Assembly (NCBI RefSeq): GCF_014252955.1
Contig: NZ_JACMIA010000001.1
Span: 3,742,258 to 3,806,257 of the forward strand
DNA: 64,000 nucleotides
Direction: 5' to 3'
From: Stappia sp. 28M-7
GTDB lineage: Bacteria; Pseudomonadota; Alphaproteobacteria; Rhizobiales; Stappiaceae
The notes beneath the pieces are model-generated. The model was not told the origin of the DNA, searched no databases, and saw nothing but the letters and a program-made list of their open reading frames with translations. This document shows positions 2,275-18,174 of this stretch, piece after piece (the first letter of the stretch is position 1; each line of letters opens with the position of its first letter). A program made the position numbers and the translations under genes.

Positions 2275-2323
2275 CCCGCGCTTCGGCCCGGCAACAACAC
2301 GGGAAACCCCCAAGGGAGATCGG

Positions 2324-4111
2324 ATGTCCACCTTCACCACCAGACCGGAAATCCGGGGCACATTCGGCGTCGTCACCTCGACCCACTGGATCGCCACGGC
2401 CGTCGGCATGAGCATTCTGGAAAAGGGCGGCAACGCATTCGACGCGGCAGCCGCCACCGGCTTCGTGCTGCAGGTGGTCGAGCCGCACCTGAACGGCCCG
2501 GGCGGCGACCTGCCCGTGATCCTGCACGACGCCGCCAGCGGCAAGATGGAGGTGATCTGCGGCCAGGCTCCGGCACCTGCAGGCGCCACCATCGAGCACT
2601 ACCGCCGCGAGGGCCTGTCGCTGATCCCCGGCGATGGGATGCTGGCGACCGTCATTCCCGGCGCGTTCGACGGCTGGATGCTGATGCTGCGCGACCACGG
2701 CAAACTGCCGCTGCGCGATGTCCTGGAACCGGCGATCCACTACGCCCGCAATGGTCATCCGATGCTGGCGCGCGTCTCTGCGACCATCGCCGGCCTTGCG
2801 GACTTCTTCGAAAAGGAATGGCCGACCTCCCACGCCACCTGGTGCCCGGGCGGCAAGGCTCCGGCAACGGATGAGCTATTCTGCAATCCCGCCCTTGCCG
2901 ACACCTGGGAACGTTTGCTGAGGGAAGCAGAGACGAAGAGCGGCCGCGAGGCGCAGATCGAGGCCGCGCGCGATTGCTTCTATCGTGGCTTCATCGCCGA
3001 GGAGATTGCCGCCTTCGTCGAAAAGACCGAGGCGATGGACGCCAGCGGCACGCCGCACAAGGGCGTGCTGACCGCCGACGACCTCGCCAATTGGCGCGCG
3101 ACGACGGAAACGCCGCTGACCTACGACTATCACGAGTGGACCGTGGCCAAGACCGGCCCCTGGGGACAGGGCCCGGTTCTGCTGCAGGCGCTCGCCTTGC
3201 TCAAGGGCACTGCCATCGGCGAGGTCGATCCGGTCGGCGCCGACTTCGTGCATCTGGTCGCCGAAGCCATGAAACTCGCCTATGCCGACCGCGAGGCCTA
3301 TTACAGCGACCCCGCCTTCACCGACGTGCCGATGGAGCACCTGTTGTCCGACGCCTACAATGCCGGACGGCGTGCGCTGATCGGCGAGACCGCCTCCTTT
3401 GACCTGCGCCCCGGCATCGTGCCGAGTCACGAGGCGCAGGTGCAAAAGGCGATGCAGGTGATTGAGGGGCTCGGCACCTCGGCGACCGGCGTCTATGAGC
3501 CGACAATGGCGCATCTGTCGGAAAAGCGCGGCGACACGGTGCATATCGACGTCATCGACCGCTGGGGCAACATGGTCTCCGCCACCCCGTCCGGCGGCTG
3601 GCTGCAGTCCTCGCCGATCATTCCCGCACTCGGCTTCTGCCTCAACTCCCGCGCCCAGATGTTCCTGCTGGAGGAGGGGCTTCCCACCTCGCTGGCACCG
3701 GGCAAGCGGCCGCGCACCACGCTGACTCCGAGCCTTGCGCTGAAGAACGGCGTTCCCACGCTTGCCTTCGGCACCCCTGGCGGCGATCAGCAGGACCAGT
3801 GGCAGCTGTCGCTGTTCCTGCGCCTCGCCCATCACGATCTCAACCTGCAGGAAGCGATCGACCAGCCGCTGTTCCATACCACCCACTTCCCGGCTTCGTT
3901 CTATCCGCGCCAGCGTCAGCCGGGCCACATCATGGTGGAGGAGAGCTTCGGCAAACCGGTGCTCGACGCGCTGCGCGCGCGCGGTCATGCTCTCGACGTG
4001 GCGCCCGCCTGGACCATCGGCCGGCTGACCGCCGCCCGCCGCGACCCGAACGGGTTGCTGCGCGCTGCCGCGACGCCGCGACTGATGCAGGCCTATGCGG
4101 CCGGACGCTGA
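2324..4111 (+). CDS. ggt: Gamma-glutamyltransferase family protein (Ntn-hydrolase)
   Basis: 595 residues from an ATG preceded by AAGGGAGA, which is why the longer frame from 2192 was rejected. GGT proenzymes self-cleave at a Thr that becomes the nucleophile of the small subunit; here the candidate is Thr405 in the GDTVHIDV segment, followed by the MVSATPSGG stretch that shapes the active site. Two subunits of about 404 and 191 residues would result. The early GGNAFDAAAATGFVLQVVEPH block is also typical. No signal peptide is visible, unlike classical periplasmic GGTs, so it probably acts in the cytoplasm on imported gamma-glutamyl compounds. It lies 49 nt behind dppC and 15 nt before the DUF1028 gene. 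Confidence 0.92.
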   Translation: MSTFTTRPEIRGTFGVVTSTHWIATAVGMSILEKGGNAFDAAAATGFVLQVVEPHLNGPGGDLPVILHDAASGKMEVICGQAPAPAGATIEHYRREGLSLIPGDGMLATVIPGAFDGWMLMLRDHGKLPLRDVLEPAIHYARNGHPMLARVSATIAGLADFFEKEWPTSHATWCPGGKAPATDELFCNPALADTWERLLREAETKSGREAQIEAARDCFYRGFIAEEIAAFVEKTEAMDASGTPHKGVLTADDLANWRATTETPLTYDYHEWTVAKTGPWGQGPVLLQALALLKGTAIGEVDPVGADFVHLVAEAMKLAYADREAYYSDPAFTDVPMEHLLSDAYNAGRRALIGETASFDLRPGIVPSHEAQVQKAMQVIEGLGTSATGVYEPTMAHLSEKRGDTVHIDVIDRWGNMVSATPSGGWLQSSPIIPALGFCLNSRAQMFLLEEGLPTSLAPGKRPRTTLTPSLALKNGVPTLAFGTPGGDQQDQWQLSLFLRLAHHDLNLQEAIDQPLFHTTHFPASFYPRQRQPGHIMVEESFGKPVLDALRARGHALDVAPAWTIGRLTAARRDPNGLLRAAATPRLMQAYAAGR

Positions 4112-4126
4112 CGGGAGACCGCCTGA

Positions 4127-4879
4127 ATGACCTACTCGATTGTGGCCCGCGACGCCGCGACCGGTCAGTTCGGCATCGCCGTCGCCAGCCGCTTCTTCGC
4201 GGTCGGCGCGATCGTCCCGCACATGGCAGGCGGTGTCGGCGCCATTGCCACCCAGGCCTTCATCTCGCCGCTCTACGGAACGGACGGGCTGAAGATGCTG
4301 CAATCCGGTGCGTCGGCCGAGGAGGTCGTCGCGGCGATGACCGGACGCGATGCCGGGGCCCATTCGCGGCAACTCCACGTGCTGGATGCAGCCGGACGCA
4401 GCGCCGTCTTCACGGGCGAGAAATGCGTTGCCTGGGCAGGACACCGCGTTGCCGAGGGCGTTTCGGTCGCAGGAAACATGCTGGTCGGTCCAAAGGTGCT
4501 CGACGACACCCTCCAGGCCTATCTCGACCATCCGCAGAAGGCCTTTGCCGACAGGCTTCTCACCGCCATGGAAGCCGGCGAGGCGGCCGGCGGCGACAGG
4601 CGCGGCAAGCAGTCGGCAGCCCTGAAGATCGTGCGGGGCGAGGCCTATCCCTGGCTCGACATCCGCACGGACGACCATCCAGATCCCTTGCCGGAACTGC
4701 GCCGGCTGATGACGGTGGCTGCCGAGCGATACCTGCATGTCGCCGAGACGCTGCCGACCTCCGACAACGTTTCGGGCATGCTCGACCGGACGGTCATCGA
4801 CCTGAAGATCGCCCAGCTGGAAGCCGAGCGGATCAAGGAAGGGCGTCCCTCCGCCTCCTTCGCAACGCCGCTAACCTGA
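4127..4879 (+). CDS. DUF1028 domain protein (putative Ntn-hydrolase-like)
   Basis: 250 residues. The start MTYSIVARDAATGQFGIAVAS is a near-consensus DUF1028 opening, and the family-typical glycine-rich GGVGAIATQAF segment follows. DUF1028 proteins have an Ntn-hydrolase-like fold and often lie beside gamma-glutamyltransferases, peptidases or peptide importers; their reaction is not established. The 15-nt spacing behind ggt suggests one operon and a shared substrate. The C-terminal ~60 residues (MTVAAERYLHVAETLP onward) extend past the core domain. No signal peptide is visible. Confidence 0.88.
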   Translation: MTYSIVARDAATGQFGIAVASRFFAVGAIVPHMAGGVGAIATQAFISPLYGTDGLKMLQSGASAEEVVAAMTGRDAGAHSRQLHVLDAAGRSAVFTGEKCVAWAGHRVAEGVSVAGNMLVGPKVLDDTLQAYLDHPQKAFADRLLTAMEAGEAAGGDRRGKQSAALKIVRGEAYPWLDIRTDDHPDPLPELRRLMTVAAERYLHVAETLPTSDNVSGMLDRTVIDLKIAQLEAERIKEGRPSASFATPLT

Positions 4880-4944: not shown

Positions 4945-5862
4945 ATGAACGAGCGGGAACAGCAGGGCGGGACCGCCGCATCCGTGCCGCGTTTCGTCAC
5001 GCTCGCCTCGCACGAGGGACCTGGGCTGGCCCGCTACCGTGCCTCGCTCGCCCGTTTCGGCGTCGAGCCGGACGTCGTGTGGACCGGCAAGCCCTATCCC
5101 GGACACCTTGCCGCCATGCGGATGCTGGGCGAGCATCTGGCGCGCCTGCCCGCCGACGAGCTCGTCGTGTACACCGATGCCTTCGACGTGGTGCTGATCC
5201 GCGATCCGGCGGAGCTTGCCGCACGCTATCGCGCCTTCGCCAGTCCCATCGTCCTCTCTACCGAGCCCGGCTTCACCTGGAAGCTGCCCGGGCGCCTTGC
5301 CGCCTCCCGGGCCTACCCGCCGGCCGGCGGCAAGAGCGGCATGTATCGCTATCTCAATTCGGGCGGTTATGTCGGAACGGCGGGCGCGCTTGCCGCCATG
5401 CTTGGCGAGCTCGACTATGCCAGCGCCGTCGACTGCGACCAGTCGCTGATCAACAAGTGGTTCATGGAAAACCCCGGCCGGGCCGCGCTCGACTACGATC
5501 AGGAGATCTTCGCCAGCTCGGCCTGCCAGTCGGGGCTGGAACGCAAGCTCTACCGGTTCGACGGCACCCACCTGACGAACACCCGCACGGGCGGCAAGCC
5601 GTTCTTCTTCCACTTCCCGGCCGAGAACCGCCTGTGCACGAAGCATGTGCTCGACATGCTGCCCTTCGAGCTGCCACGCCTGCCCGTCCGCCCGCGCGAC
5701 CGGCGCAAATACATCCTCAACGTGATCGAGAGCCGGCCGACCTTCTGGTTCGACCGGCCCGCCTACCCGCTGGAGGATATCGTCGGCCTCATCGCCTTCC
5801 GGCTGCTGCCGGCAGGCGCGCTTGCCGGCCTAGGCTATCTGGCCTGGCGCGCCATCGGCTGA
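4945..5862 (+). CDS. PLOD-like glycosyltransferase domain protein
   Basis: 305 residues from the ATG at 4945 with GGAGGG upstream; the frame also opens at a TTG at 4930, but the SD favours the ATG. The protein resembles the glycosyltransferase domain of eukaryotic lysyl hydroxylases (PLOD): an opening VTLASHEGPGLARYRASLARFG, then VVYTDAFDVVLI, where DAFD matches the DxxD metal/UDP-sugar site, then LNSGGYVGTAGAL and a late HFPAENR segment. It probably transfers a sugar from a nucleotide donor; acceptor unknown. It follows DUF1028 by 65 nt and is convergent with the next cluster. Link to the upstream peptide genes is not obvious. Confidence 0.72.
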   Translation: MNEREQQGGTAASVPRFVTLASHEGPGLARYRASLARFGVEPDVVWTGKPYPGHLAAMRMLGEHLARLPADELVVYTDAFDVVLIRDPAELAARYRAFASPIVLSTEPGFTWKLPGRLAASRAYPPAGGKSGMYRYLNSGGYVGTAGALAAMLGELDYASAVDCDQSLINKWFMENPGRAALDYDQEIFASSACQSGLERKLYRFDGTHLTNTRTGGKPFFFHFPAENRLCTKHVLDMLPFELPRLPVRPRDRRKYILNVIESRPTFWFDRPAYPLEDIVGLIAFRLLPAGALAGLGYLAWRAIG

Positions 5863-5880: not shown

Positions 5881-7350
5881 TTACTGCGGGTCGAGCACCG
5901 CCTCGACCTCGATCTCCACCTCGTAGCCACCGATGAGATCACCGACGGCCAGCATGGTGTTGGCGGGACGGATCTCGCCGAAAACCCTCCCATGCGCACG
6001 CGACGGGCCTTCCCATGCGCCGACATCCTGCAGGTAGACCCGCGTGCGCACCACGTCCTCCATCGAACCACCGAAAGCGGTAAGCGCCGCGGCGATCTTG
6101 TCGAGGATATAGGTGGTCTGGGCCTCGGCATCGCCCGGCGCGACGCAATGGTCGGCGCCATGGGTCGCGGTCGTGCCGGAGACGAGAACCCGGTCGCCGA
6201 TGCGCATCGCCCGGCTGAAGCCGGCAAGCGGCTCCCAGATGCTGCCCGACGACAGGCGCCAGCGGTTGGGCCGGCCCGGCACCGGCTCCGGCGTATAGAC
6301 GCTGGGGATCTGGTCGAGGTGGTGGCTGAGATCGCCCGAAGCGGTGAGGAAGGGCGGGCGGCGGTACTCGTCGCCGCAATCGCCGGGGATCGGCTGCATC
6401 GCGCCGAAAGCACTCTCCAGACGGGCACGGTCCTCGTCATCGAGCGCAAAACCGAAGAGGCGGAGATTGTCGGCCCGGTGCTCGCTCTCGCCGACCCGCG
6501 CACCGATGATCACCCCGGCAACGGAGGGCGTTTCCAGCACCCAGCGGGTCGCGACGTTGGACAGGGAAACTCCGTGCTTGCGGGCGATGTGATCGAGTGC
6601 CGAAAGCAGCCCCTGAAAGGCCTGCCAGCCGCCAGCCGTGTCGATGAAGCGCTTGTACTTCATCCGGCTCCAGTCGGCGATCTGGGTCGGTTCCTGCTTG
6701 CCGAGCCAGCGTTCGGACAGGAACCCGCCGCACAGCGTGCCATAGGCGAGAAGACGCACGCCTCGCTCCTGGCAAAGGGCGGTCAGGGCACCGGCCGCCC
6801 GCCGGTCGACCACCGAGAAAGACACCTGGTTGGAAACGATGGGCAGGTTCTCGGCCAGCGCGACGCGCAGATGGCCCGCGTCGAAGTTGGTCACGCCGAT
6901 CTCGCGGATGAGCCCTTCCTCGCGGAGCTTCGCAAGATGCTTGAGAGCATCGAGCCAGCCCGGATGTTCGAAGGTCCACCAGTGGAACTGCAGCAGGTCG
7001 ACGCATGCAACGCCGAGCCGGTCGAGCCGCTCCTGAACGCCGGCACGCACCACCTCCTCGGTCATCGGGCCGGGCTCGGGGCACCATTTGGTGAAGGCGA
7101 GCGGGCGGCCCTCCCCCTCGCCGTGGCGCGCCAGCAGACGACCGGCAACGAGCTCCGCATTGCCGTAATGGTCCGCCATGTCGAAGGTGGTGAAGCCGGC
7201 GGCCGCGTAGTCTGCGAGATGGCCGGCTGCAGCGTCCAGATCGACGGGCGTTCCGTCCTTCTCGATGTCGGCGATCTGCCAGAGACCGGTCAGAATTCGG
7301 CTGATTTCGAGGTCGGGGCCGAGTTTCGTCGTATCGGGACGGCTGGTCAT
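5881..7350 (-). CDS. Aldo/keto reductase fused to a C-terminal Rid (YjgF/YER057c) domain
   Basis: 489 residues. Residues ~10-325 are an aldo/keto reductase with the catalytic tetrad visible: Asp and Tyr in FDMADHYG, Lys in AFTKWCPEP and His in LQFHWW. Residues ~369-489 are a Rid-family domain (DRVLVSGTTATHG, DVVRTRVYLQDV). The Rid position that holds Arg in active imine deaminases (PARSTV in RidA) reads PANTML here, so classical deaminase activity is doubtful. I chose the ATG at 7350 because it overlaps the permease stop (ATGA). It is the last gene of the leftward LivG-F-H-M run, so it probably acts on the imported compound. Confidence 0.9.
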   Translation of the reverse strand: MTSRPDTTKLGPDLEISRILTGLWQIADIEKDGTPVDLDAAAGHLADYAAAGFTTFDMADHYGNAELVAGRLLARHGEGEGRPLAFTKWCPEPGPMTEEVVRAGVQERLDRLGVACVDLLQFHWWTFEHPGWLDALKHLAKLREEGLIREIGVTNFDAGHLRVALAENLPIVSNQVSFSVVDRRAAGALTALCQERGVRLLAYGTLCGGFLSERWLGKQEPTQIADWSRMKYKRFIDTAGGWQAFQGLLSALDHIARKHGVSLSNVATRWVLETPSVAGVIIGARVGESEHRADNLRLFGFALDDEDRARLESAFGAMQPIPGDCGDEYRRPPFLTASGDLSHHLDQIPSVYTPEPVPGRPNRWRLSSGSIWEPLAGFSRAMRIGDRVLVSGTTATHGADHCVAPGDAEAQTTYILDKIAAALTAFGGSMEDVVRTRVYLQDVGAWEGPSRAHGRVFGEIRPANTMLAVGDLIGGYEVEIEVEAVLDPQ

Positions 7351-8348
7351 GTGCGGTCGGATCCTGTCGTGGCGGCGGGTGTGCCGCGCCATCTGTGAAG
7401 AAAAGGCAAGCGGCGACGTGCGCCGCCAGGCTCGGGAAGCAGCCCTTGCGGGCGGAAGAGAAGGATGGCGCAAAGTGCGACACCGATGATCACGGTCTGC
7501 AGCGAGGCGGCGCGGGCCTGCTCCCCGGCGGGAGCCAGCGCCTCGACCACGGCGGACGATGCCGCCCACAGCGCCCAGACCAACAGCGCGCCGAGGATGG
7601 CGCCGCGATTGTTGCCGGAACCGCCGACGATGAGCATCGCCCAGACCTGGAAAGTCAACATCGGCAGGTAGTTCTCCGGCGCGATGAAGCCGATGAAATG
7701 CGCCTGCGCCGCACCTCCAAGGCCCATGATCGCCCCGCCAAGCGCAAAGGCCTCGATGCGGAAGCGGCGCGGGCTCTTGCCGAGCGCCTCTGCCGCCACC
7801 TCGTCCTCGCGGATCGCCCTCAGCGCACGGCCCCAGGGGCTTTTCGCCAGATGCTGGAGCATCAGATACAGGCCGAACACCACGGCGACGAGAAGCGCCA
7901 GATTGGCGAGAGAGAAGGCGAGCGAGCGGCCGACCAGATCGCCGAAGGGACGCGGGATGAGGCTGATGCCGAAAGGACCGCCCGTGATGCCCTCGAGATT
8001 GAGTACGGCAAGTTGCACGGTGACCGCAATGCCGAAGGTGGAAATCGCCAGATAGTCGGCGCGCAGTCGAATGGTCATCCAGCCGATCAGCGCCGAAAGC
8101 AGCCCGGAGGCAACGAAGGCACCCAGCCAGCCGACGATGATCGGCAGGTCGAAGCCGCCGACGCGCCCATCCACCGCCGGCGAGGTCAGCAGCGCCGAGA
8201 CATAGGCCCCGACGGCAACGAACCCGGCGACGCCGACATTGAACAGCCCCGTCTGGCCCCACTGCACGTTGAGACCGAGAACGATCACCGCATAGGTCAG
8301 CGCGACGGTCAGGAAGAAGGCGCAATAGGCGAGGAGTTCCAGGCTCAT
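7347..8348 (-). CDS. LivM-type branched-chain amino acid family ABC permease
   Basis: 333-residue hydrophobic inner-membrane permease of the HAAT family. Hallmarks are the GLNVQWGQTGLFNVG segment near residue 30, the RLRADYLAISTFG helix, the cytoplasmic loop SPWGRALRAIREDEVAAEALG and the GGSGNNRGAILGA stretch. Start and stop overlap neighbours by ATGA on both sides (LivH-type upstream, the reductase fusion downstream), so translation is tightly coupled. Pairs with the LivH-type permease to form the channel. The substrate cannot be read from sequence; HAAT systems also carry aromatic acids, urea and amides. Confidence 0.95.
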   Translation of the reverse strand: MSLELLAYCAFFLTVALTYAVIVLGLNVQWGQTGLFNVGVAGFVAVGAYVSALLTSPAVDGRVGGFDLPIIVGWLGAFVASGLLSALIGWMTIRLRADYLAISTFGIAVTVQLAVLNLEGITGGPFGISLIPRPFGDLVGRSLAFSLANLALLVAVVFGLYLMLQHLAKSPWGRALRAIREDEVAAEALGKSPRRFRIEAFALGGAIMGLGGAAQAHFIGFIAPENYLPMLTFQVWAMLIVGGSGNNRGAILGALLVWALWAASSAVVEALAPAGEQARAASLQTVIIGVALCAILLFRPQGLLPEPGGARRRLPFLHRWRGTPAATTGSDRT

Positions 8349-9256
8349 GCCGCCCTCCCGAACAGGCCCGTGGGACGCAGCACCAGCACGGCGGTGATCA
8401 CGGCGAAGGCAACGGCCGCCCGCCATTCGGCGCCGATCGTCTGCACCGCCAGCGCCTCGCACAAACCGACCAGCAGCCCGCCGAGCATGGCGCCGGGCAC
8501 CGAACCGATACCGCCAAGGATGACGGCGGCGAAAAGCGGCAGCAGCAGGTCGAAACCCATATAGGGACGGATCTGCACCAGCAGGCCCGACATGGTGCCC
8601 GCCGTACAAGCCAGTGCGCCGCCGATGATCCACACCGCGCGCACGATCTTCGCCGTATCGATGCCGACGACACCGGCGAGCGCGGGGTTCTCGCTGACAG
8701 CGCGCATGGCCCGGCCGAGATCCGTGCGGGTGAGCAGCAGATGAACGGCGATCACCGCCACGAAGGCCAGACCGATCAGCAACAGCTGGTCGGGCGTTGC
8801 GCGAATGCCGCCGGGCAGCGGCATGGCGATCTGCAGTTCGCGGGAATAGTAGGCGGGCTTCGAGGTGTAGAAGAATTCCAGCAGGCTGCGCAGCGCCATG
8901 GACGCTCCGAAGCTGGCCATCACCACGATGATCGCGGTTGCCCCGCGCCGTCTCAGCCTGGCGAACAGGAGATGGTCGACGGCGAGCGCCAGAACCGCGG
9001 TGAGCGCCATGGCCAGCAGCCCGGCGAGGATCAGCGCCACCGACACGCTGAACGGATCGAGCGGGGCTAGGCTGGCGCCGGACACCGCACCGATGGCCAG
9101 CGACAGGCTGAGCGAGAGATAGGCGCCCCAGCTGAGCAACTCGCCATGGGCGAAATTGGCAAAGCGCAGGATCGAATAGGTCAGCGTCAGGCCGACCGCA
9201 CCGAGGCCGATCATAGCTCCGGCAAGCAGGCCCTCGAGCAGGATCTGGCCGCTCAT
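8345..9256 (-). CDS. LivH-type branched-chain amino acid family ABC permease
   Basis: 303 residues. The opening LLEGLLAGAMIGLGAVGLTLTYSILRFANFAHGE is the standard LivH first helix and loop. The cytoplasmic coupling loop reads GRAMRAVSENPALAGVVGID, and the C-terminal half carries VILGGIGSVPGAMLGG, both family signatures. Its ATG overlaps the LivF-type stop (ATGA at 9253-9256) and its stop overlaps the LivM-type start. Length and motifs are normal; nothing looks broken. Confidence 0.95.
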   Translation of the reverse strand: MSGQILLEGLLAGAMIGLGAVGLTLTYSILRFANFAHGELLSWGAYLSLSLSLAIGAVSGASLAPLDPFSVSVALILAGLLAMALTAVLALAVDHLLFARLRRRGATAIIVVMASFGASMALRSLLEFFYTSKPAYYSRELQIAMPLPGGIRATPDQLLLIGLAFVAVIAVHLLLTRTDLGRAMRAVSENPALAGVVGIDTAKIVRAVWIIGGALACTAGTMSGLLVQIRPYMGFDLLLPLFAAVILGGIGSVPGAMLGGLLVGLCEALAVQTIGAEWRAAVAFAVITAVLVLRPTGLFGRAA

Positions 9257-10026
9257 CGTGTCCCCTCCCCGGCGGTAGCGGCGCCGTCCGCATGGGCGCC
9301 AAGGAACAGGCGGCCGATATCCGGATCGGCGGCGAGATCCGCCGCCGGTGCATCGTGGCGCAGCAGGCCGTCCACCAGGATCACGGCGCGCGAGGCAATC
9401 GCCAGAGCCGCCCTGACATTTTGCTCGACCAAAAGGATCGGTACGCCGCTACGATTGATCTCGACCAGCCGCGCAAACATTTCCGAAACCGCCTTGGGCG
9501 ACAGGCCCGCAGACGGCTCGTCGAGGATCAGTACCTTCGGCTCGACAAGGAGCGCGCGTGCGGTCGCCAGCATCTGGCGCTGTCCCCCGGACAGACCGCC
9601 GGCAAGCGCGCCCGGCCGACTTGCAAGATCGGGATAGGCCGCGAGCATCGCGTCGATGCGCTGCTGGCGTTCCGCCTTGGGCAGGACGGCGGCGGCCACC
9701 TGCAGGTTCTCGCGGATCGTCAGGGTCGCGAAAATGTTCTCCGTCTGCGGCACGAAGGCCAGCCCCTGACGCACGAGTTCATGGCGCGGCAGGCCGGTAA
9801 TGTCCCGACCGGAGAGATGCAGAGAGCCGCCATGCAGCGGCACGAGCCCGGCAATCGCCTTGACGAAGGTCGACTTGCCGGCCCCGTTCGGCCCGAGCAC
9901 CGTGACGAATTCGCCCGGCGCCAGAGTGAAGTCGATCCCCTTGACGATAGGCAGGTCCGGCTCGTAGCCGGCGACGAGGCCGCGGGTCGCAAGCGGCGCC
10001 CTCGGAGCGGATGCGGCCGTCGTCAT
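9253..10026 (-). CDS. LivF-type ABC transporter ATPase
   Basis: 257 residues from the ATG at 10026, which overlaps the LivG-type stop (ATGA); the longer frame to 10149 lies wholly inside livG. Walker A is GPNGAGKST, the ABC signature LSGGQRQML, and Walker B with catalytic Glu VLILDEPSAG. The short total length and the LVEQNVRAALAIASRA switch region are typical of LivF. Works as the second nucleotide-binding subunit of the Liv-type importer. Confidence 0.95.
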   Translation of the reverse strand: MTTAASAPRAPLATRGLVAGYEPDLPIVKGIDFTLAPGEFVTVLGPNGAGKSTFVKAIAGLVPLHGGSLHLSGRDITGLPRHELVRQGLAFVPQTENIFATLTIRENLQVAAAVLPKAERQQRIDAMLAAYPDLASRPGALAGGLSGGQRQMLATARALLVEPKVLILDEPSAGLSPKAVSEMFARLVEINRSGVPILLVEQNVRAALAIASRAVILVDGLLRHDAPAADLAADPDIGRLFLGAHADGAATAGEGTR

Positions 10027-10856
10027 GGCGCGACCTCCGGCAAGACTTCGCCGAGATAGGCTTCCGCGACCTCGCGGTTGGCCATGATCTCCGCCGGAGT
10101 GCCAGCCGCCAGCTCCCGCCCGGCCGCCATCACGACGATCCGCCCGCACAGACGGGCGATCATGTCCATGTTGTGCTCGATGAGGAGGATACTGACGCCC
10201 ATCCGGTTGATCTCGACGATCCGGTCGATGATGACATCGAGCAGCGCCGGATTGACGCCCGCGGCCGGCTCGTCGAGCAGGATCACCGCCGGCTCGGCCA
10301 TCATCACGCGGGCAAGCTCCAGCAGCTTGCGCTGACCGCCGGACAGGACGCGGGCCGGCTGGTCGACGAGATGGCCGAGGGTCACGAAATCGATCAGCGC
10401 CCTCGCCCGTTCGCGCGCCGCACGCTCCTCCGCCCGAACGGTACCGGGCTGCAGGAAGTTGCGCAGGATGCTCTCGCCGGTCTGGTTTTGCGCCGCCGCC
10501 ATGACATTGTCGAGGATGCTCATGCCGGCGAAGGGACGCGGGATCTGGAACGTGCGCCCCAGCCCCATGGCCAGTCGCCGCGAGGCCGTCTGGCGTTCTA
10601 TCCGCTCTCCCTTGAGGCGGATTTCGCCCGCATCCGGCACGAGACTTCCGGCGATCAGGCTGAAGAAGGTGGTCTTGCCTGCGCCGTTCGGGCCGATCAG
10701 CCCGACGATCTCCCCGGCCTGGAGGTCCAGCGACATGCCGTCCACCGCCCGGTTCCCGCCGAACCGCCGGGCAACGCCCCTGGCCGACAGAACCGGCGGC
10801 ACTCCGCCGGCCGATCTGTGCACTGCCCCGTCCGCAGCGCTGCTGACTGACTGCAA
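10023..10856 (-). CDS. LivG-type ABC transporter ATPase, probable TTG start
   Basis: 277 residues if translation starts at the TTG at 10856. That codon has AAGGAG seven bases upstream, the best ribosome-binding site in the region. Longer in-frame starts (ATG at 10979 or 11150) would run through the operator and regulatory region, so I reject them; a GTG slightly downstream is possible. Walker A is GPNGAGKTT, signature [10 protein letters not shown], Walker [11 protein letters not shown]. The Q-loop region carries [15 protein letters not shown], as in LivG. First gene of the leftward run G-F-H-M-reductase, divergent from gntR. Confidence 0.88.
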
Positions 10857-10963
10857 GGATCCGCTCCTTATCCCGGCGCCCGGCGGCAGGGTCTTTACGC
10901 CCTGTCTGTCACGACCTCCAAAAGGCAATCGACAGCCACCAAAGGACCGCCTCGCGATCCGTG

Positions 10964-10979
10964 ATGTTTGATCAAACAT
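10964..10979. promoter_or_regulatory. Perfect 16-bp palindrome, candidate operator of the divergent GntR regulator
   Basis: ATGTTTGATCAAACAT reads the same on both strands. It lies in the 284-bp gap between livG (leftward) and gntR (rightward), the only divergent promoter region of this cluster. A related half-site pattern follows at 10983-11005 (TTGATCAC and GTTTGATTG). GntR/FadR-type dimers bind such short palindromes. This is a pattern-based assignment; the regulator encoded at 11141 is the obvious candidate. No convincing -35/-10 pair was identified. Confidence 0.6.
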
Positions 10980-11140
10980 ATCTTGATCACAGATCGCGTT
11001 TGATTGTAAAGATGGAACAGACAGGTTTTTCGGCAGGCTTCGAGGGGAGCGAGACCACCGCCTTGTGGGGTGCTTCGGCCGCATTCCGGCACCCTCACAC
11101 CTCGCGACCTGCCCCGGAGGGGGAAGCCAAGGAGGAGGCG

Positions 11141-11908
11141 ATGGCTGCAAGGACGGCTAGCAGACCGCTGCGTGTTGCAGGCGCCGCGACCGAGGCTGGC
11201 GACACCGAAGGCGCGCTGGCTCCGCTCAATCCGGTCGGCCGGCGCACGGTTCAGGACAGCGTCTATGACGAGCTGCGCCGATCCCTGATCCAGGGCCTCT
11301 TCGACCCCGGCGAAGTCCTGCGCATCGTCGACGTCTCCAACCGCCTCGGCACCAGTACCATGCCCGTGCGCGAGGCTCTGGCCCGCCTGATCTCGGAGCA
11401 GGCACTTGAGGCGATGCCCAACCGCTCCGTCCGCGTGCCGCTGATCTCCCGCGACCGCCTGGAGGATCTGGCCCGCGCGCGCGCGATTATCGAGAGCGAG
11501 ATCATCGGCCTTGCCATGCCGAACGTCACGGATGCGCTCGTCGAGGAACTGGTGCATCTGACCGATGCCTGCGATGCCGTACTGGCAACCAGGGGCCGGG
11601 AAATCTCCGGCGAGGCGGCCGACCTCAACCACGCCTTCCACTTCACGCTCTATCGCGCGGCCGGATCGCAGGTGATGATCCCGATCATCGAGAGCCTGTG
11701 GCTGCAGTCGGGCCCGTATCTGCGCGCCTCCGCCCGCCTCTTCGATCCCGTCACCGACCGATCCGCCACCCACTTTCACCGCGAGATCGTCGAGGCCGTA
11801 ACCCGGCGCGACACGCCGGCCGCACAAGCCGCGCTCAAGGCGGATATCGGACGTGCCTTCGACATCCTGCGCAAGCACCTGACCGAAACCGGCGAGGAAA
11901 CCCGATGA
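11141..11908 (+). CDS. GntR family (FadR/FCD subfamily) transcriptional regulator
   Basis: 255 residues from the ATG at 11141, which follows an AAGGAGGAGG ribosome-binding site; the frame also opens at 10961 but that would translate the operator region. Residues ~35-100 are a winged helix (TVQDSVYDELRRSLIQGLF, TSTMPVREALARLISEQALE). Residues ~105-245 are an all-helical FCD ligand-binding domain with LNHAFHFTLYRAAGS and FHREIVEAV, which carry metal-binding His positions of this class. Probably senses the imported substrate or an intermediate and controls both divergent arms. Its stop overlaps the next start. Confidence 0.92.
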   Translation: MAARTASRPLRVAGAATEAGDTEGALAPLNPVGRRTVQDSVYDELRRSLIQGLFDPGEVLRIVDVSNRLGTSTMPVREALARLISEQALEAMPNRSVRVPLISRDRLEDLARARAIIESEIIGLAMPNVTDALVEELVHLTDACDAVLATRGREISGEAADLNHAFHFTLYRAAGSQVMIPIIESLWLQSGPYLRASARLFDPVTDRSATHFHREIVEAVTRRDTPAAQAALKADIGRAFDILRKHLTETGEETR

Positions 11909-12285
11909 GCCACGAGGCGAACGACGACAGCTTCGAGCTCTACGATCTGCGGGTCGAAGCGGTGATGCCGGAGGACGGCGGCAAGGTCTATTGCGGGGCA
12001 AAGCCGGGCGATCACTTCGAGCTGCGCGGCGAGATGTTGCACATGCCGCCCGGCCAGGGCTTCTCGATCTATTCCATCGCGGCCGTCCTGCCCTTGCTGG
12101 CGGCAAAGCAGCGCCCGACTCATCCCAACGACTGGATGACCAGCGACGCGGATGTCGCCTGCCCCGATCCCAACTGCGCCAGCCGGTTGCGCATCACGCG
12201 GCTCGGTCTGCGCCGTTTCTCCCATGCGGCGACCACTGCCGTTCCCCTTCCAGATGCCGCTGGCGACAGCGCAAACGGCGAGTGA
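11905..12285 (+). CDS. TIGR04076 family small protein
   Basis: 126 residues. It begins ATGA-coupled to gntR. The core YDLRVEAVMPEDGGKVYCGAKPGDHFELRG, the IYSIAAVLPLLAAKQRP segment and the late CPDPNCASRLRITRLG block fit TIGR04076, a family of small cytoplasmic proteins of unknown function with conserved Cys and Gly-Asp positions. Three cysteines (one in YCG, two in CPDPNC) could bind metal, but this is speculation. In this operon it precedes an aldo/keto reductase, so a role as accessory subunit or small enzyme in the same pathway is plausible. Confidence 0.82.
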   Translation: MSHEANDDSFELYDLRVEAVMPEDGGKVYCGAKPGDHFELRGEMLHMPPGQGFSIYSIAAVLPLLAAKQRPTHPNDWMTSDADVACPDPNCASRLRITRLGLRRFSHAATTAVPLPDAAGDSANGE

Positions 12286-12289
12286 CCCC

Positions 12290-13351
12290 GTGACCAAGAT
12301 GGAAACCCATGTCCTGAAAGACGATCACGTCATCTCCCGCGTCATCCGCGGTGGCTGGCAGCTCGCCGGTGGGCACGGCGCGGTCGACCGCGACACGGCA
12401 ATCGACGACATGGTCGCCTTTGCCGATGCCGGCATCACCACCTTCGACTGCGCCGACATCTACACCGGCGTGGAAGAACTGATCGGCGCCTTCCGCGAGC
12501 GCTACCGTGACTTGCGGGGAGAGGAAGCCCTGTCCCGGATCTGCGTCCACACCAAGCTGGTGCCGGATCTCGACCGCTTGATCGGCATCGACCGCGCGCA
12601 TGTGGAAGAGCTGGTCGACCGTTCGCTGTCACGGCTGCGCTGCGAGCGGCTGGACCTCGTGCAGTTCCACTGGTGGGACTACAATGCTCCCGGCTGGCTG
12701 GATGTCGCCCTGTGGCTGAAGGAGCTGCGCCAGGCCGGTAAGATCCGCAATATCGGCGTCACCAATTTCGACAGCGATCATGTTGCCGCCATGCTGGCTG
12801 CAGGCGTGCCTCTCGTCTCGGCACAGGTGCAGTATTCCCTGCTCGACACGCGCCCGGCCAAGCGGCTTGCCGGCATCGCCCGCGACAACGGCATGTCCTT
12901 CCTGTGCTATGGCACGGTCGCTGGCGGTTTCCTGAGCGAGAAGTGGCTGGGCCAAGCCGAGCCGGTTGCGGACCTGGAGAACCGCTCGCTGGTCAAATAC
13001 AAGCTGATCATCGAGGATTTCGGCGGTTGGGACCTGTTTCAGGCACTGCTGGCCGCCCTCAAGCAAGTCGCCGACAAGCACGGCACCGACATCGCCAGCG
13101 TTGCCAGCCGCTGCGTGCTGGACCGCGATCAGGTCGGCGCGGTCATCGTCGGCGCGCGCAACCGGGCGCACCTTCCCTCCAATCTCGGCCTTTGCGAGAT
13201 CGCCCTGGATGCCGGCGACCGCGCGAAGATCGCTGAGGTTCTCGCCTCCGCCCGCGAGCTGGACGGCGATGTCTACACGCTGGAGCGCGACCGCCACGGG
13301 CGCCACGGACGCATCATGAAATACAACCTCAACGACGAGAAAGCCGCATGA
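12290..13351 (+). CDS. Aldo/keto reductase
   Basis: 353 residues from the GTG at 12290; an ATG at 12299 is an equally possible start because the ribosome-binding site is weak. The tetrad is visible: Asp and Tyr in FDCADIYTG, Lys in VHTKLVPD, His in VQFHWWDY. The segments HWW, PGWLD and RNIGVTNFDSDH closely match the reductase half of the fusion gene on the other arm, so the two are paralogues that may work on related intermediates. NAD(P)H-dependent reduction of a carbonyl is expected. The stop overlaps the next start (ATGA). Confidence 0.92.
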   Translation: MTKMETHVLKDDHVISRVIRGGWQLAGGHGAVDRDTAIDDMVAFADAGITTFDCADIYTGVEELIGAFRERYRDLRGEEALSRICVHTKLVPDLDRLIGIDRAHVEELVDRSLSRLRCERLDLVQFHWWDYNAPGWLDVALWLKELRQAGKIRNIGVTNFDSDHVAAMLAAGVPLVSAQVQYSLLDTRPAKRLAGIARDNGMSFLCYGTVAGGFLSEKWLGQAEPVADLENRSLVKYKLIIEDFGGWDLFQALLAALKQVADKHGTDIASVASRCVLDRDQVGAVIVGARNRAHLPSNLGLCEIALDAGDRAKIAEVLASARELDGDVYTLERDRHGRHGRIMKYNLNDEKAA

Positions 13352-13791
13352 CGAACACAGGCGACATCGGCGCTGCCGCCGCGCGCGAGATCGTCGCCCG
13401 GCACGAGTTCTTCGTCGACTGGTTCGCCGGCCGGCTCGAAGACAGCGCCTTTGCCGCCGCGCTTGCCGCATTCGAACCGGACTTTCATCGCATCGGCCCA
13501 GACGGCGCCCTACAGGACCACGAAGGCCTGACGTCGATGCTGGCCGCCGCAAGGGGGCGCTTTGCCGAGGGTTTCGCGATCGCCATCGAGGATGTGGCGG
13601 TTCTGCGTGAGACCGGCGACGACGCCCTGATGACCTATGTGGAACGGCAGGAGCACGGCGGAAGGACCACCTTCCGCCGTGCAGGCGCGCTGTTCTCCAG
13701 AAATGCCGACGCTCCCCTGGGGGTGGCGTGGCGCTTCGTCCAGGAAACCTGGATCAATGACCGCACGGACGAACAACCGGCGGCAGAATGA
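13348..13791 (+). CDS. NTF2/SnoaL-like (DUF4440-type) small protein
   Basis: 147 residues, ATGA-coupled to the aldo/keto reductase. The pattern is that of a cone-shaped NTF2-like fold: an N-terminal helix (AAAREIVARHEFFVDWF), FEPDFHRIGPDG, a long middle helix and strands ending in WRFVQETWI. Proteins of this group are small isomerases, dehydratases or ligand-binding proteins; no catalytic residues can be assigned. Its position between the reductase and the binding protein makes it part of the pathway operon. Confidence 0.75.
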   Translation: MTNTGDIGAAAAREIVARHEFFVDWFAGRLEDSAFAAALAAFEPDFHRIGPDGALQDHEGLTSMLAAARGRFAEGFAIAIEDVAVLRETGDDALMTYVERQEHGGRTTFRRAGALFSRNADAPLGVAWRFVQETWINDRTDEQPAAE

Positions 13792-13808
13792 CGAGAAGGG
13801 GAACAGCA

Positions 13809-15083
13809 ATGAGCAAGTTGAAATGGACTTCCGCGCTTGCCGGCGGCGTCCTCGCCGCATTGGCGGCAGGTTCGGCGGCGCAGGCCTGCGAGGTCACCGT
13901 CGGCCTCGTCCTCGAACTCACCGGCCCTGCCGGCCAGTACGGCCAGGCCGGCGCCAAGTCGGTCGAGATGGCGTTTCGCGATCTCAATGATGCCGGCGGC
14001 GTTCTGGACGGCTGCAAGCTGGTGACAGACACCCGCGACAGCCAGAGCCAAGGCAATGTCGCCGTGGATCAGGCCACCCAGTTGGTCAACATCAAGAAGG
14101 TGCCTGTCGTCATCGGCGGCATCATCTCCTCGGTCTCCATCCCGATCCTGACCTCGGTCACCGCCCCGGCCGGCGTTGTCCAGGTCTCGCCTGCCTCCTC
14201 CTCGCCGACGCTGACCCAGCTCGCCCGCGACGGCAAGAGCGGCGGCTACTTCTTCCGCACGATCACCTCCGACGCCCTGCAGGGCACCGCGGCGGCGAAA
14301 TACGCCATCGACCAGGGGTTGAAGAAGCTCGCCATCATCCATGTGAACAACGACTTCGGCGTGAACATGGTGCGCGAGTTCTCATCCGCCTTCGAAAAGC
14401 TCGGCGGCACCATCACGTCCACGACCCCCTACAACGAGAAGCAGGCGAGCTACTCGGCCGAAGCGTCCGCCGCAATGGCGGGCGAACCGGAAGCGCTCTA
14501 TCTCGTCAGCTATCCGGTCGACGGCGCCACCATCGCCCGCGCCTGGATCTCGCAGGGCGGACCGCAGACCTTCCTGCTGAACGACGGCATGAACTCCACC
14601 GACTTCATCGAGAGCGTCGGCGCGAAGTTCCTCGACAAAGCCTTCGGCACGTCGTCCGGCACCACGCCGACCAAGTCGACGGAATATTTCTACGGCGCCT
14701 ACAAGGACTTCTCCGGCGGCATCGAGCCGAGCGCTCCGGCCGCCGACCGTTCCTACGATGCCGGCGCCATTGTCGGCCTCGCCATCGCAAAGGCAGGCTC
14801 CGCCGAAGCCGATGCGATCAAGGCCGCCATCCCGCAGGTGGTTGCCGCGGACGGCGAGCCGATCTTCGCGGGCAAGGATGAGTTCGCCAAGGCGCTTGAA
14901 CTGATCAAGGCCGGCAAGCCCATCAAGTACGAAGGCGTCATCGGGCCGGTCGGCTTCGACGAATACGGCGACATCACCGGTCCGTTCCGCCTGTGGCGGA
15001 TCTCGTCCGGCGAGGTCACGACCGTCGGCGAGATGTCGGCGAAAGACGTGATGAGCCTCAAGGACGAACTGGCCGGCAAGTAA
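13809..15083 (+). CDS. Liv-type (family 1) ABC transporter substrate-binding protein
   Basis: 424 residues from the ATG at 13809 with AGAAGGGG upstream. Residues 1-~26 are a Sec signal peptide (WTSALAGGVLAALAAGSAAQA). The mature part starts with CEVTVGLVLELTGPAGQYGQAG, typical of periplasmic branched-chain amino acid family receptors, and has the AMAGEPEALYLVSYP and FLLNDGMNSTDF segments of the second lobe. Gene order makes it the receptor for the LivG-F-H-M components on the opposite strand. Splitting the receptor from the membrane parts around a divergent promoter allows separate expression. A strong terminator follows. Confidence 0.94.
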   Translation: MSKLKWTSALAGGVLAALAAGSAAQACEVTVGLVLELTGPAGQYGQAGAKSVEMAFRDLNDAGGVLDGCKLVTDTRDSQSQGNVAVDQATQLVNIKKVPVVIGGIISSVSIPILTSVTAPAGVVQVSPASSSPTLTQLARDGKSGGYFFRTITSDALQGTAAAKYAIDQGLKKLAIIHVNNDFGVNMVREFSSAFEKLGGTITSTTPYNEKQASYSAEASAAMAGEPEALYLVSYPVDGATIARAWISQGGPQTFLLNDGMNSTDFIESVGAKFLDKAFGTSSGTTPTKSTEYFYGAYKDFSGGIEPSAPAADRSYDAGAIVGLAIAKAGSAEADAIKAAIPQVVAADGEPIFAGKDEFAKALELIKAGKPIKYEGVIGPVGFDEYGDITGPFRLWRISSGEVTTVGEMSAKDVMSLKDELAGK

Positions 15084-15179: not shown

Positions 15180-16007
15180 TTACGCGGCAAGCCCCAGAAG
15201 CGCGCGCGCCTCGGCAACGCTCGCCGGATGGCGGCCGTATTCCGGGCAAAGATCGACGACCCGCTGCACCAGCGCAGCGTTGGAGGGCGCAAGCCGCTCC
15301 TTGTCGAGGCGCACATTGTCCTCAAGGCCGGTGCGGCAATGGCCGCCAAGCTCAAGGCTCCAGCGGTTCAGCTCGATCTGGTTGCGGCCAATGCCCGCGC
15401 CCGTCCATGTCGCCTCCGGCATCAGCCGCTTCAAGGTCTCGACATAGAATTCGAAGACCTTGCGGTCGGCAGGCATGGCATTCTTCACGCCCATCACGAA
15501 CTGGACATGCAGCGGCCCCTTGAGCCGGCCATCCTTGACCATGGACGCGGCCTGGAAGACATGCGAGAGGTCGAAGGCCTCGATCTCCGGCTTGACGTTG
15601 TAGGTCAGCATTTCCGAGGCCAGCCAGTCGACGAGGTCCGGCGGGTTCTCGTAGACCCGCGTCGGGAAATTGTTGGAGCCCACCGAAAGCGACGCCATGT
15701 CGGGCGCCAGCGGCAACATGCCGCCCCGCGCCTTGCCGGCACCCGAGCGCCCGCCGGTCGACAGCTGGATGATCATGCCGGGGCAGTGCTTCTTCAGCCC
15801 CTCGACCAGCCCGGCAAAGCGCTCCGGATCGGAGGTCGGCTTGCCGTCCTCCTCGCGCACGTGGCAATGGGCGATGGTTGCTCCGGCCTCGAACGCTTCC
15901 TGCGTGCTCTCGACCTGTTCCGCAACGGTGATCGGCACCGCTGGATTGTCCGATTTCTGCGGCACGGAACCGGTGATCGCCACGCAGATGATGCAAGGTT
16001 CGGACAT
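15180..16007 (-). CDS. BKACE family (3-keto-5-aminohexanoate cleavage-like, DUF849) enzyme
   Basis: 275 residues. BKACE enzymes use Zn to condense a beta-keto acid with acetyl-CoA and release acetoacetate plus a CoA ester. Visible features: opening IICVAITGSVPQKSDNPAVPIT, the Zn-binding HCH in ATIAHCHVREEDG, the IIQLSTGGRSG segment, and C-terminal TGLEDNVRLDKERLAPSNAALVQRVV. The ATG at 16007 has AGGAGG 12 nt upstream; a GTG at 16016 is too close to it. Convergent with the Liv-type cluster, so it may supply a late step of that pathway or act alone. The beta-keto substrate is unknown. Confidence 0.92.
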   Translation of the reverse strand: MSEPCIICVAITGSVPQKSDNPAVPITVAEQVESTQEAFEAGATIAHCHVREEDGKPTSDPERFAGLVEGLKKHCPGMIIQLSTGGRSGAGKARGGMLPLAPDMASLSVGSNNFPTRVYENPPDLVDWLASEMLTYNVKPEIEAFDLSHVFQAASMVKDGRLKGPLHVQFVMGVKNAMPADRKVFEFYVETLKRLMPEATWTGAGIGRNQIELNRWSLELGGHCRTGLEDNVRLDKERLAPSNAALVQRVVDLCPEYGRHPASVAEARALLGLAA

Positions 16008-16055: not shown

Positions 16056-16143
16056 GCCCCGGCGCCCATCCCTCCCGGACAGGCGGTTCACGGGCACCTT
16101 CGATCTGGTTAGCAGCTTCGCCGAAGATCGGCAAATGGGTGGA

Positions 16144-18174
16144 TCAAAGCAGACCGCGCGCAGGCGTCACGACCGCTGGCAACGCGAAGTTTTCCAACCC
16201 GCCACCCACCCTGCCGCCACGCGCCAGAAGCGCAACGAGATCGGTCGCCGGCACAGGGGCGCCGAACAGGAACCCTTGCGCCACCCGGCAGCCGGCACCG
16301 GTCAGCAGCGCGACCTGCTGCTTCGTCTCCACCCCTTCCACAGTCACGCCGATATCGAGCCGTGCGGCCAGTTCCAGGATCGACGTGACGATCGATAGGC
16401 TGTGACGGTCGCTCTCCAGCGAGCGCACGAAACTGCGGTCGATCTTCAGCTCGTCCCACTGGAAACTGCGCAGATAGGACAGCGCCGAATAGCCGGTTCC
16501 GAAATCGTCGAGCGAGATCGAAACGCCGAGGGCCTTCAGTTTCTTCAGGGTCGCGATCGCCCGGCGCGTGTCCTTCATGACGACGCTTTCGGTCACTTCC
16601 AGTTTCAACCGCGACGCCGGCAAGCCGAAGCGCAACAGCACATCGGCAACGGTCTCGGCCAGATCCTCGCGCGCAAGCTGCGCCACCGACAGGTTGACCG
16701 CGACCGGCAGCTCGATGGGCAGCGCCAGCGTGTCGCGGCAGGCCTGCTCCAGGATCCGCTCGCCGATCTCGACGATCCGTCCCGACGCCTCGGCAATGGG
16801 AATGAACTCGCTGGGAGGCACCCAGCCGAGCGCCGGATGACGCCAACGGGCCAGCGCCTCGAGCCCGACGATGCGTCCGGTCAGCATGTCGACCTGAGGC
16901 TGGTAGTGGGTCGCGATGTCCCCGTCCTCCAGCGCCTGGGTGATGCCTTCCTCGATCTGGCGGCGACGTGTTGCGTCCGCGCGCATGGAAACGTCGTAGA
17001 GCTGCACGCGGCCCTTGCCGGTTGCCTTGGCATGGCTCAACGCCAGATCCGCGTTCTGCAGCATCGACGAGCCGCTCTCGTCGTCTTGCGCCAGCGCAAC
17101 GCCGATCGTCGCGTTGACCACCACATTGCCGCCGCTCAGCGTATGGGCCTCGTGCAGCCCGTCGATGAGCAGCTTGCCCCTGGACACGGCCTCCTCTTCT
17201 CCGCCGGAAAGCCGGGTCAGCACCGTGAACTCGTCGCCGCCAAGCCGCGAGACCACGTCGCGCGGGCCCCAGTCGGCAACGATCCGGCGCAGCCTGTCGG
17301 CGACCGAACGCAGCAGATCGTCGCCGGACGCATGGCCGAGAATGTCGTTGACCGCCTTGAACCCGTCGAGATCGAGCGCAAGGACGGCAAGCCGTCCGCT
17401 CTCTCGCGGCCTGGCAGTCGATATCGCCTGCTCCAGCGAATCGTGGAAGGCGATGCGGTTGGGCAAACCCGTCAGCGGATCATGGCGAGCGGCGAACTCG
17501 AACTCGCGCGCTGTCTGCTCGGCTGTTGCCCTCGCCCGGCGCAGCGAGCGGGCCTGGATAGACATGAACAGCAGCAGCACGGCACCGGTACCGACCAGCA
17601 CCTCAACCAGAATGTTCTGCAGCCTCTGGCGCTCGAGCAATGTGGCGCGGGTTTCGGCGGCCTCGACAAGATTGTCCATCAGCGCCTCGCCGCCGATCCG
17701 GTCGATCACGCCCACAGCCTTTTCGAGCACCGCATCGATACGCGCCAGCGCCGCCCGATCCGGCAGGGCTGCATAGTCGCTTTCGATCGATGCCACGTCC
17801 TGGGACAGTTCGTCGAGCATGGCCTTACGCCGCGGCGATGCGGCAACGAAGGCACCGAACGCCCCCGACGACCAGGTCTCGATACGGCTCGCCAGAATAT
17901 TGTAGAAGAGCCAGGCCTCTTCCGCGTCCGATATGCGGCCGGTCGCTGCATATTGCGAGATGCGCTGCCGTGCCGTCATCGCGTCGACACGTCCGTTGAG
18001 CCCCGACATGGCGATGTCGTAGCGCATCGACTTGTCCACCGCCCCCCCGGTCGTCAATACCGCCTCGGCGTGCAACAGAACCGCCAGCACCAGAACCACC
18101 AGGACCGAAATGGCCAAATGGCGGAAGCGGTCACCGACGGCAGTCGCGCGCTTGAGGAGGATCGACAGGGTCAT
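16144..18174 (-). CDS. Membrane-bound GGDEF-EAL c-di-GMP enzyme
   Basis: 676 residues. TM1 is ~20-40 and TM2 ~188-206, enclosing a helical periplasmic domain of ~145 residues without a recognised fold. Then a GGDEF domain with intact GGDEF at 312-316, and an EAL domain with EAL at 439-441 plus the DDFGTGYS loop and EGVET segment needed for metal and catalysis. Both halves therefore look catalytically competent; which dominates cannot be said. The start is 4 nt behind the stop of the small secreted protein at 18179-18664, so the two are one operon, and the periplasmic domain probably receives a signal from it. Confidence 0.94.
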   Translation of the reverse strand: MTLSILLKRATAVGDRFRHLAISVLVVLVLAVLLHAEAVLTTGGAVDKSMRYDIAMSGLNGRVDAMTARQRISQYAATGRISDAEEAWLFYNILASRIETWSSGAFGAFVAASPRRKAMLDELSQDVASIESDYAALPDRAALARIDAVLEKAVGVIDRIGGEALMDNLVEAAETRATLLERQRLQNILVEVLVGTGAVLLLFMSIQARSLRRARATAEQTAREFEFAARHDPLTGLPNRIAFHDSLEQAISTARPRESGRLAVLALDLDGFKAVNDILGHASGDDLLRSVADRLRRIVADWGPRDVVSRLGGDEFTVLTRLSGGEEEAVSRGKLLIDGLHEAHTLSGGNVVVNATIGVALAQDDESGSSMLQNADLALSHAKATGKGRVQLYDVSMRADATRRRQIEEGITQALEDGDIATHYQPQVDMLTGRIVGLEALARWRHPALGWVPPSEFIPIAEASGRIVEIGERILEQACRDTLALPIELPVAVNLSVAQLAREDLAETVADVLLRFGLPASRLKLEVTESVVMKDTRRAIATLKKLKALGVSISLDDFGTGYSALSYLRSFQWDELKIDRSFVRSLESDRHSLSIVTSILELAARLDIGVTVEGVETKQQVALLTGAGCRVAQGFLFGAPVPATDLVALLARGGRVGGGLENFALPAVVTPARGLL

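Follow-up and report, generated by a model that had tools for sequence, protein, structure and literature searches.

What do the ten genes at positions 5881 to 15083 of a 64,000-nucleotide stretch of DNA from Stappia sp. 28M-7 (contig NZ_JACMIA010000001.1) encode together, and is their chemistry reductive or oxidative? The whole stretch, called the window below, belongs to an alphaproteobacterial genome of 5.13 Mb. Open reading frame (ORF) calls and family searches place the genes in two divergent arms either side of a single GntR/FCD regulator, as an initial annotation had proposed from the sequence alone. The minus arm holds livG, livF, livH, livM and a fusion of an aldo/keto reductase (AKR) with a Rid domain. 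The plus arm comprises gntR, a TIGR04076 gene, a second AKR gene (AKR2), an NTF2-like gene and the gene of a LIV-type receptor. Substrate-induced uptake and oxidative catabolism of one small amino compound, with TIGR04076 and AKR2 as the core, is the preferred reading and is given an even chance.

The gene set is a real conserved neighbourhood and no chance grouping. One scan of genome contigs with an AKR2 alignment yielded at least 581 relatives, the best 80 of which were compared as loci. TIGR04076 and the receptor are present in all 80, GntR in 77; 76 loci combine TIGR04076 and AKR2 with the full set of four Liv genes. The gap between TIGR04076 and AKR2 has a median of 20 bases. The fusion (41/80) and the NTF2-like gene (31/80; 3 with the fusion, 28 with a flavoenzyme introduced below) are optional parts. 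The initial annotation had suggested a search for the fusion and TIGR04076 as a conserved neighbourhood; the outcome is positive, TIGR04076 being constant and the fusion a variable part. Among the matches listed, the closest named locus is from Stappia sp. TSB10P1A (AKR2 95% identical). Named hosts comprise Rhizobium, Mesorhizobium, Aureimonas, Stappia, Inquilinus and Rhodobacterales. The order of the genes is rearranged in Pannonibacter and Microvirga, which argues for function over mere inheritance as a block. Since the cluster recurs in rhizobia and in marine Alphaproteobacteria, its substrate is likely a common compound of roots or sea water. As the initial annotation held, the system is uncharacterised: no description was found in the literature that could be searched, a body from which subscription papers are mostly absent.

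Plasmids gave a similar picture. A search with the fusion as query returned 17 records at a cover of at least 80% (identity 59.8-78.8%). Sixteen of them were examined (H13, a second Thioclava record, was left out), together with H18 (partial fusion), H19, H20 and H25. TIGR04076, AKR2, Liv genes and the receptor are also held by 15 of the 16 records with a full-length fusion. The exception is an Antarctobacter plasmid with the fusion and without the rest of the set. Its lone fusion (L006, 14001-15467) is flanked by ABC transporters of the amino-acid and polyamine types; genes of the glutamine synthetase family and of N-formylglutamate amidohydrolase are close by.

TIGR04076 and AKR2 form the core of the cluster. 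Among 289 evenly sampled alphaproteobacterial genomes, TIGR04076 exceeded its cut-off in 17. The same genomes were searched with the fusion model, which at the limit used (E 1e-60, fixed beforehand) also catches AKR2. The AKR clade was found in 17; this list is a lower bound, with at most five AKR candidates scored per genome. Both occur together in 16 genomes (P ~4e-24, not corrected for kinship). AKR2 adjoins 17 of the 19 over-cut-off TIGR04076 matches in this class sample, and one of the two exceptions, G015, has such an AKR elsewhere in its genome. The order sample contained TIGR04076 over cut-off in 19/150 genomes, with all 19 loci beside AKR2, and the phylum sample in 14/398, 13 of them beside AKR2. 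The samples share genomes with one another, and the window is part of all three. Seven alphaproteobacterial loci have the pair but no Liv genes, and it is found on two haloarchaeal plasmids as well, one of which separates the two genes by 3.4 kb. A gene of the gamma-glutamyltransferase (GGT) family is located beside the TIGR04076-AKR pair of the haloarchaeon Natronosalvus.

Both AKRs belong to the aldo/keto reductase superfamily, exceeding the PF00248 cut-off and keeping in the window the residues Asp-Tyr-Lys-His of the AKR catalytic tetrad. The fusion retains all four residues in 20/20 aligned sequences. Asp, Tyr and Lys of AKR2 are kept in 32/32 aligned sequences and His in 23/32, the window included. 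In TIGR04076, Cys30, Cys86, Cys91 and His107 are invariant among the 31 sequences of alignment A4, to which the window contributes; in a wider set of 44, conservation of Cys30 and Cys86 is 90% or more. The predicted structure is fairly confident (mean pLDDT 85.6). Its fold gave a best E of 0.33 against the PDB (Foldseek), with nothing at 0.001, and a sequence comparison with solved structures gave a best E of 0.61. No DNA match to the gene was found in E. coli genomes. In the literature that could be searched, TIGR04076 is hardly mentioned and DUF3830, a family encountered below, was not found. The association with redox enzymes is the only role that can be given to TIGR04076.

An oxidative direction of the pathway is suggested by an exchange of enzymes. 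A DAO-family FAD oxidoreductase (FADc, PF01266) is encoded in 36/80 loci, among them 35 of the 39 that lack the fusion. Exactly one of the two enzymes is present in 75/80 loci, both in one (L117) and neither in four (Fisher P 6e-17, inflated by kinship). DUF3830 stands beside FADc in 33/36 loci, and FADc occurs with a free Rid gene in L144 and L171. On a quick AKR2 tree of 130 rows, FADc with DUF3830 requires three changes and FADc with free Rid two; a single origin of the former would be compatible with the starred branches. Two loci that contain the fusion, L147 and L163, were scored as lacking it in this tree, which makes its own number of changes too high. The nearest solved relatives of FADc are glycine oxidase and dimethylglycine dehydrogenase, with matches (E 1e-9 and weaker) too weak for naming a substrate. 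DAO flavoenzymes are oxidases or dehydrogenases. Replacement of the fusion by such an enzyme behind the same receptor favours an oxidative step over a reduction. If the fusion does the job of FADc, its AKR would be a dehydrogenase.

This bears on the expectation of the initial annotation that a keto or imine intermediate is reduced after uptake. The Rid domain would then hydrolyse an enamine or imine and the AKR would reduce the product, in a Rut-like manner. Such a course agrees with the intact tetrads of both window AKRs, with a Rid protein that is either fused or, in some loci, free beside FADc, and with the common role of AKRs in cells as reductases of carbonyls. It is nevertheless unlikely, given the exchange with oxidases or dehydrogenases and the state of the Rid domain. 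Imine-hydrolysing Rid proteins (RidA, Rid1-3) carry an essential Arg, Arg105 in TdcF, while an alignment to solved Rid proteins places Asn464 of the window fusion at this position. Across the 80 loci the same Asn was found in 38/40 fusions; the pattern used did not match the two others. In alignment A5 it occupies 19 of 20 rows, with Ser in the remaining one. Three free Rid proteins examined read PTNT, i.e. they have Asn too. Arg-less Rid subfamilies seem not to act as imine hydrolases and have no known function, according to the part of the article available here, where the only assay noted among them concerns Rid7 of Salmonella (Niehaus et al., 2015; PMC4433059). The word 'aldo' does not occur in that text. 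Neither a role of the domain as imine hydrolase nor the reductive step expected by the initial annotation is supported. The best PDB match of the domain is 3i7t. The linker between the two domains, PGDCGDEYRxPPFLTASGDLSHHL, is nearly invariant. In the model of the fusion, pLDDT falls below 50 in two stretches, the longer of which (335-343) lies inside the linker; perhaps the linker closes over the site of a neighbouring subunit.

The transporter is an ABC importer of the HAAT/LIV class, with two BPD_transp_2 (PF02653) permeases, two ABC ATPases and a Peripla_BP_6 receptor. This composition would suit an ordinary importer of branched-chain or common amino acids with unrelated enzyme genes adjoining. 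Such an arrangement is highly improbable, considering the 76 loci that unite TIGR04076, AKR2 and the four Liv genes. All parts also score far under the NCBIfam cut-offs of LivFGHM-JK (LivM 127 vs 366 bits, LivH 118.5 vs 379, LivG 212 vs 362, LivF 138 vs 441, receptor 89.5 vs 477). Receptor clade 1 comprises 111 sequences more than 60% identical to the window receptor, among them those of 56 loci with the fusion and 39 with FADc and DUF3830. The pocket motifs GGII-S, SPA(S/A), NNDFG, D-G and NDGMN are common to both versions. The Asp of NDGMN is conserved in 111/111. The ligand probably has an amino group, because this invariant Asp aligns with what is presumably the position of the acid that binds the amino (ammonium) group in LIV-type proteins. 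The PDB contains only distant relatives of the receptor (best 4n0q, E 1e-19), and no ligand can be inferred from them. Pathways of ectoine, carnitine, pyridoxine, opines, creatinine and homarine were considered and set aside for want of evidence.

A candidate GntR operator was located between the arms. Of 74 regions between livG and gntR, taken from the window and from the 73 of the 80 loci in which both genes were placed, 65 contain TGATCA. Its density is 11.2 per kb in the 74 regions vs 0.48 per kb elsewhere in these sequences, and 17 pairs of sites are spaced 15 bp apart. In the window the sites at 10969 and 10984 precede the likelier GntR start, and the palindrome region is likely to be the operator.

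The following mechanism is proposed. A small, amino-bearing compound, probably with an alcohol or lactol group, would be bound by the receptor and imported through LivGFHM. AKR2 and TIGR04076, acting as physical partners in a two-gene unit, would catalyze the committed redox step. A second oxidative step would be performed here by the NAD(P)-dependent AKR-Rid fusion, and in other lineages by a DAO-type flavoenzyme with DUF3830 or a free Rid protein. GntR, sitting in the intergenic region between the arms, would keep both repressed; binding of the compound or of a metabolite to the regulator would lift the repression.

Several observations weigh against this mechanism. The 80 loci were chosen by similarity of AKR2, which biases them towards complete clusters. 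Within the class sample, G285 has TIGR04076 without the AKR clade and G184 has a fusion without TIGR04076. Outside Alphaproteobacteria, TIGR04076 need not adjoin AKR2: in the phylum sample, G581 is the one genome from beyond the class with TIGR04076 over the cut-off, and it lacks AKR2 nearby, and on two Rhodococcus plasmids (L097, L098) TIGR04076 stands beside LLM flavin enzymes. The functional equivalence of the fusion and the DAO enzyme is suggested by their exchange; L117 carries both within 10 kb. The habitual carbonyl reduction by AKRs, already mentioned, counts here as well. In 13 sequences of a second receptor type, the Asp is replaced by Asn or Gln. The catalytic His is lost in 9 of the 32 aligned AKR2 proteins, eight of them from loci with this second type of receptor, and the ninth (L073) from a locus without Liv genes; L062 and L076 have the second receptor type yet keep the His of AKR2. 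Because of the Asn/Gln variants and the loss of His, other compounds may be the substrates of related clusters. GntR, TIGR04076, AKR2 and the receptor are kept in four rhizobial loci (L113, L146, L154, L170) that show neither Liv genes nor a second enzyme in the stretch examined.

These four share a 7.6-kb segment (gntR-TIGR04076-AKR2-receptor-lactonase-MaoC-CoA-transferase) that is 86-95% identical to that of L146 and looks mobile. The left flank of L146 matches L170, matches L113 over the nearest 0.6 kb only and does not match L154. In Rhodococcus, the TIGR04076 genes of L097 and L098, a tandem pair in the latter, lie directly before those of LLM flavin oxidoreductases, which adds another type of redox partner. 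In L100, the gene 3' of the receptor (16115-16792) is annotated as L-aspartate dehydrogenase. A 39% relative has the same place in L230 (2759-3355), and another relative at 39% is found in L095. Further variants contain additional enzymes. In L065, L067, L072 and L074, TIGR04076 and AKR2 are accompanied by a free Rid protein, hydantoinase A/B and the second receptor type, without the fusion. L072 and L074 have an arylmalonate decarboxylase-type gene in addition. Hydantoinase A was matched in seven compared loci (L064, L065, L067, L072, L074, L009, L018). The hydantoinase and decarboxylase variants hint at a ring or carboxylate step in those loci only.

The variants also bear on a role in detoxification or metabolite repair, in which reactive aldehydes or dicarbonyls would be cleared and the importer would serve salvage instead of catabolism. 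The best, weak NCBIfam neighbours of both AKRs are methylglyoxal reductases (61.7 and 64.6 vs 550 bits), and in L068 and L071 the Liv-less TIGR04076-AKR2 pair stands, as judged by eye, beside housekeeping-looking genes. Such a role is decidedly unlikely, as dedicated importers and regulation by GntR typically point to nutrient use and the variants add catabolic-looking hydantoinase A/B, arylmalonate decarboxylase-type, lactonase and DAO enzymes.

The coordinates of the features are given in Table 1. The initial annotation described all junctions but three as ATGA overlaps, and the letters agree for six of nine (livM/fusion, livH/livM, livF/livH, livG/livF, gntR/TIGR04076, akr2/ntf2). The others are the divergent promoter, a 13-base gap 5' of AKR2 and ntf2/receptor. 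The last would overlap by ATGA as well if the receptor began at 13788, but 13809 is the likelier start because of a ribosome-site-like stretch upstream and a signal-peptide-like opening (by eye). The start of GntR, like that of livG (10856 or 10802), is absent from the initial annotation; GntR probably starts at 11141, where a strong ribosome site precedes it. No Rfam family reached its gathering score and no tRNA was found within the window, and there was no Rfam match up to E 1 in 10700-11300.

Table 1. Coordinates and family evidence of the cluster genes, the candidate operator and the convergent neighbour
Feature	Position	Strand	Evidence and remarks
AKR-Rid fusion, 489 aa	5881..7350	-	PF00248 192 bits and PF01042 74 bits; Asn464 at Rid catalytic Arg position
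livM-type permease	7347..8348	-	PF02653
livH-type permease	8345..9256	-	PF02653
livF-type ATPase	9253..10026	-	ABC_tran
livG-type ATPase	10023..10856	-	ABC_tran; start 10856 (TTG) or 10802 (GTG)
Likely GntR operator	10966..10992		palindrome GTTTGATCAAAC; TGATCA at 10969, second TGATCA 15 bp on at 10984
GntR/FCD regulator	11141..11908	+	GntR and FCD families; frame open from 10961
TIGR04076 protein, 126 aa	11905..12285	+	53.6 bits vs curated cut-off 33
AKR2, second aldo/keto reductase, 350 aa	12299..13351	+	PF00248 223 bits
NTF2-like (DUF4440-type) protein, optional part	13348..13791	+	PF14534 20.5 bits, below cut-off 25.2; PDB 1tp6 E 1e-8
Periplasmic receptor	13809..15083	+	Peripla_BP_6; start 13788 possible
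BKACE gene, convergent, judged outside conserved set	15180..16007	-	NF053568; frame open to 16097

The convergent BKACE gene had been suggested as a late step, so that the cluster would feed a beta-keto acid pathway ending at this enzyme. It adjoins the cluster in the window, in L101 (Stappia sp.) and in L088, which is of the window's genus. This ending is scarcely credible and largely refuted by the neighbourhood data: the gene lies on the opposite strand, it was not found in 79 of the 80 loci (L101 being the one with it), and its product scores 501.8 bits vs a cut-off of 350 as 3-oxoadipate:acetyl-CoA acetyltransferase. The latter enzyme catalyzes a step of aromatic-acid degradation. BKACE was rejected as a member of the set. 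Beyond it, a GGDEF-EAL protein with both domains is encoded at 16144-18174. On the other side of the cluster, a GGT gene followed by a DUF1028 gene occupies 2321-4879, and the gene product of 4948-5862 contains a glycosyltransferase domain of the PLOD type (PF25342, 66 bits); by eye, L101 has a similar-looking protein at the equivalent position.

An importer with catabolic enzymes and a GntR regulator is an ordinary kind of system; the parts are unusual. The TIGR04076 family gains a recurrent partner, AKR2, and Arg-less Rid proteins gain a genetic setting for testing their function. The exchange of the fusion with the DAO flavoenzyme narrows the likely chemistry, and the receptor offers a direct way to the compound by ligand screening. 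A bolder possibility, held tentatively and below the preferred reading itself, is that TIGR04076 and AKR2 constitute a new kind of two-component oxidoreductase, in which the small Cys-containing protein is needed for AKR activity. The fusion would then contain the first Arg-less Rid domain with an assigned role, handling an unstable oxidation product within one polypeptide, and together they would constitute a novel route by which a compound abundant in roots and sea water is degraded.

Among known systems, Rut pyrimidine degradation employs the Rid protein RutC and the reductase RutE. Like the cluster, it joins a Rid-family protein, an NAD(P)H reductase and uptake. The cluster differs in that the listed NCBIfam matches of its ten genes include no RutA, RutB or RutD model, in its Arg-less Rid domain (41 bits vs the RutC cut-off of 169) and in its reductases, which are AKRs. 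The HAAT/LIV importers LivJKHMGF and UrtABCDE have the same component makeup as the window transporter, which is distinguished by sub-equivalog scores and by its recurrence with AKR2, TIGR04076 and the fusion or a DAO enzyme. A TIGR04076 gene occurs in the isethionate microcompartment locus of Bilophila, according to the available part of that report (PMC8667426). The Bilophila and Rhodococcus loci share with the window cluster the family and the redox enzymes nearby; their partner enzymes are others, and no AKR is annotated in the two Rhodococcus stretches. As described in the accessible text of PMC4433059, the subfamilies Rid4-Rid7 resemble the window Rid domain in being without the essential Arg, a position that is variable in Rid5 and Rid6. 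Unlike these subfamilies as described there, the window domain is part of an AKR fusion, which DAO-type enzymes replace in other loci.

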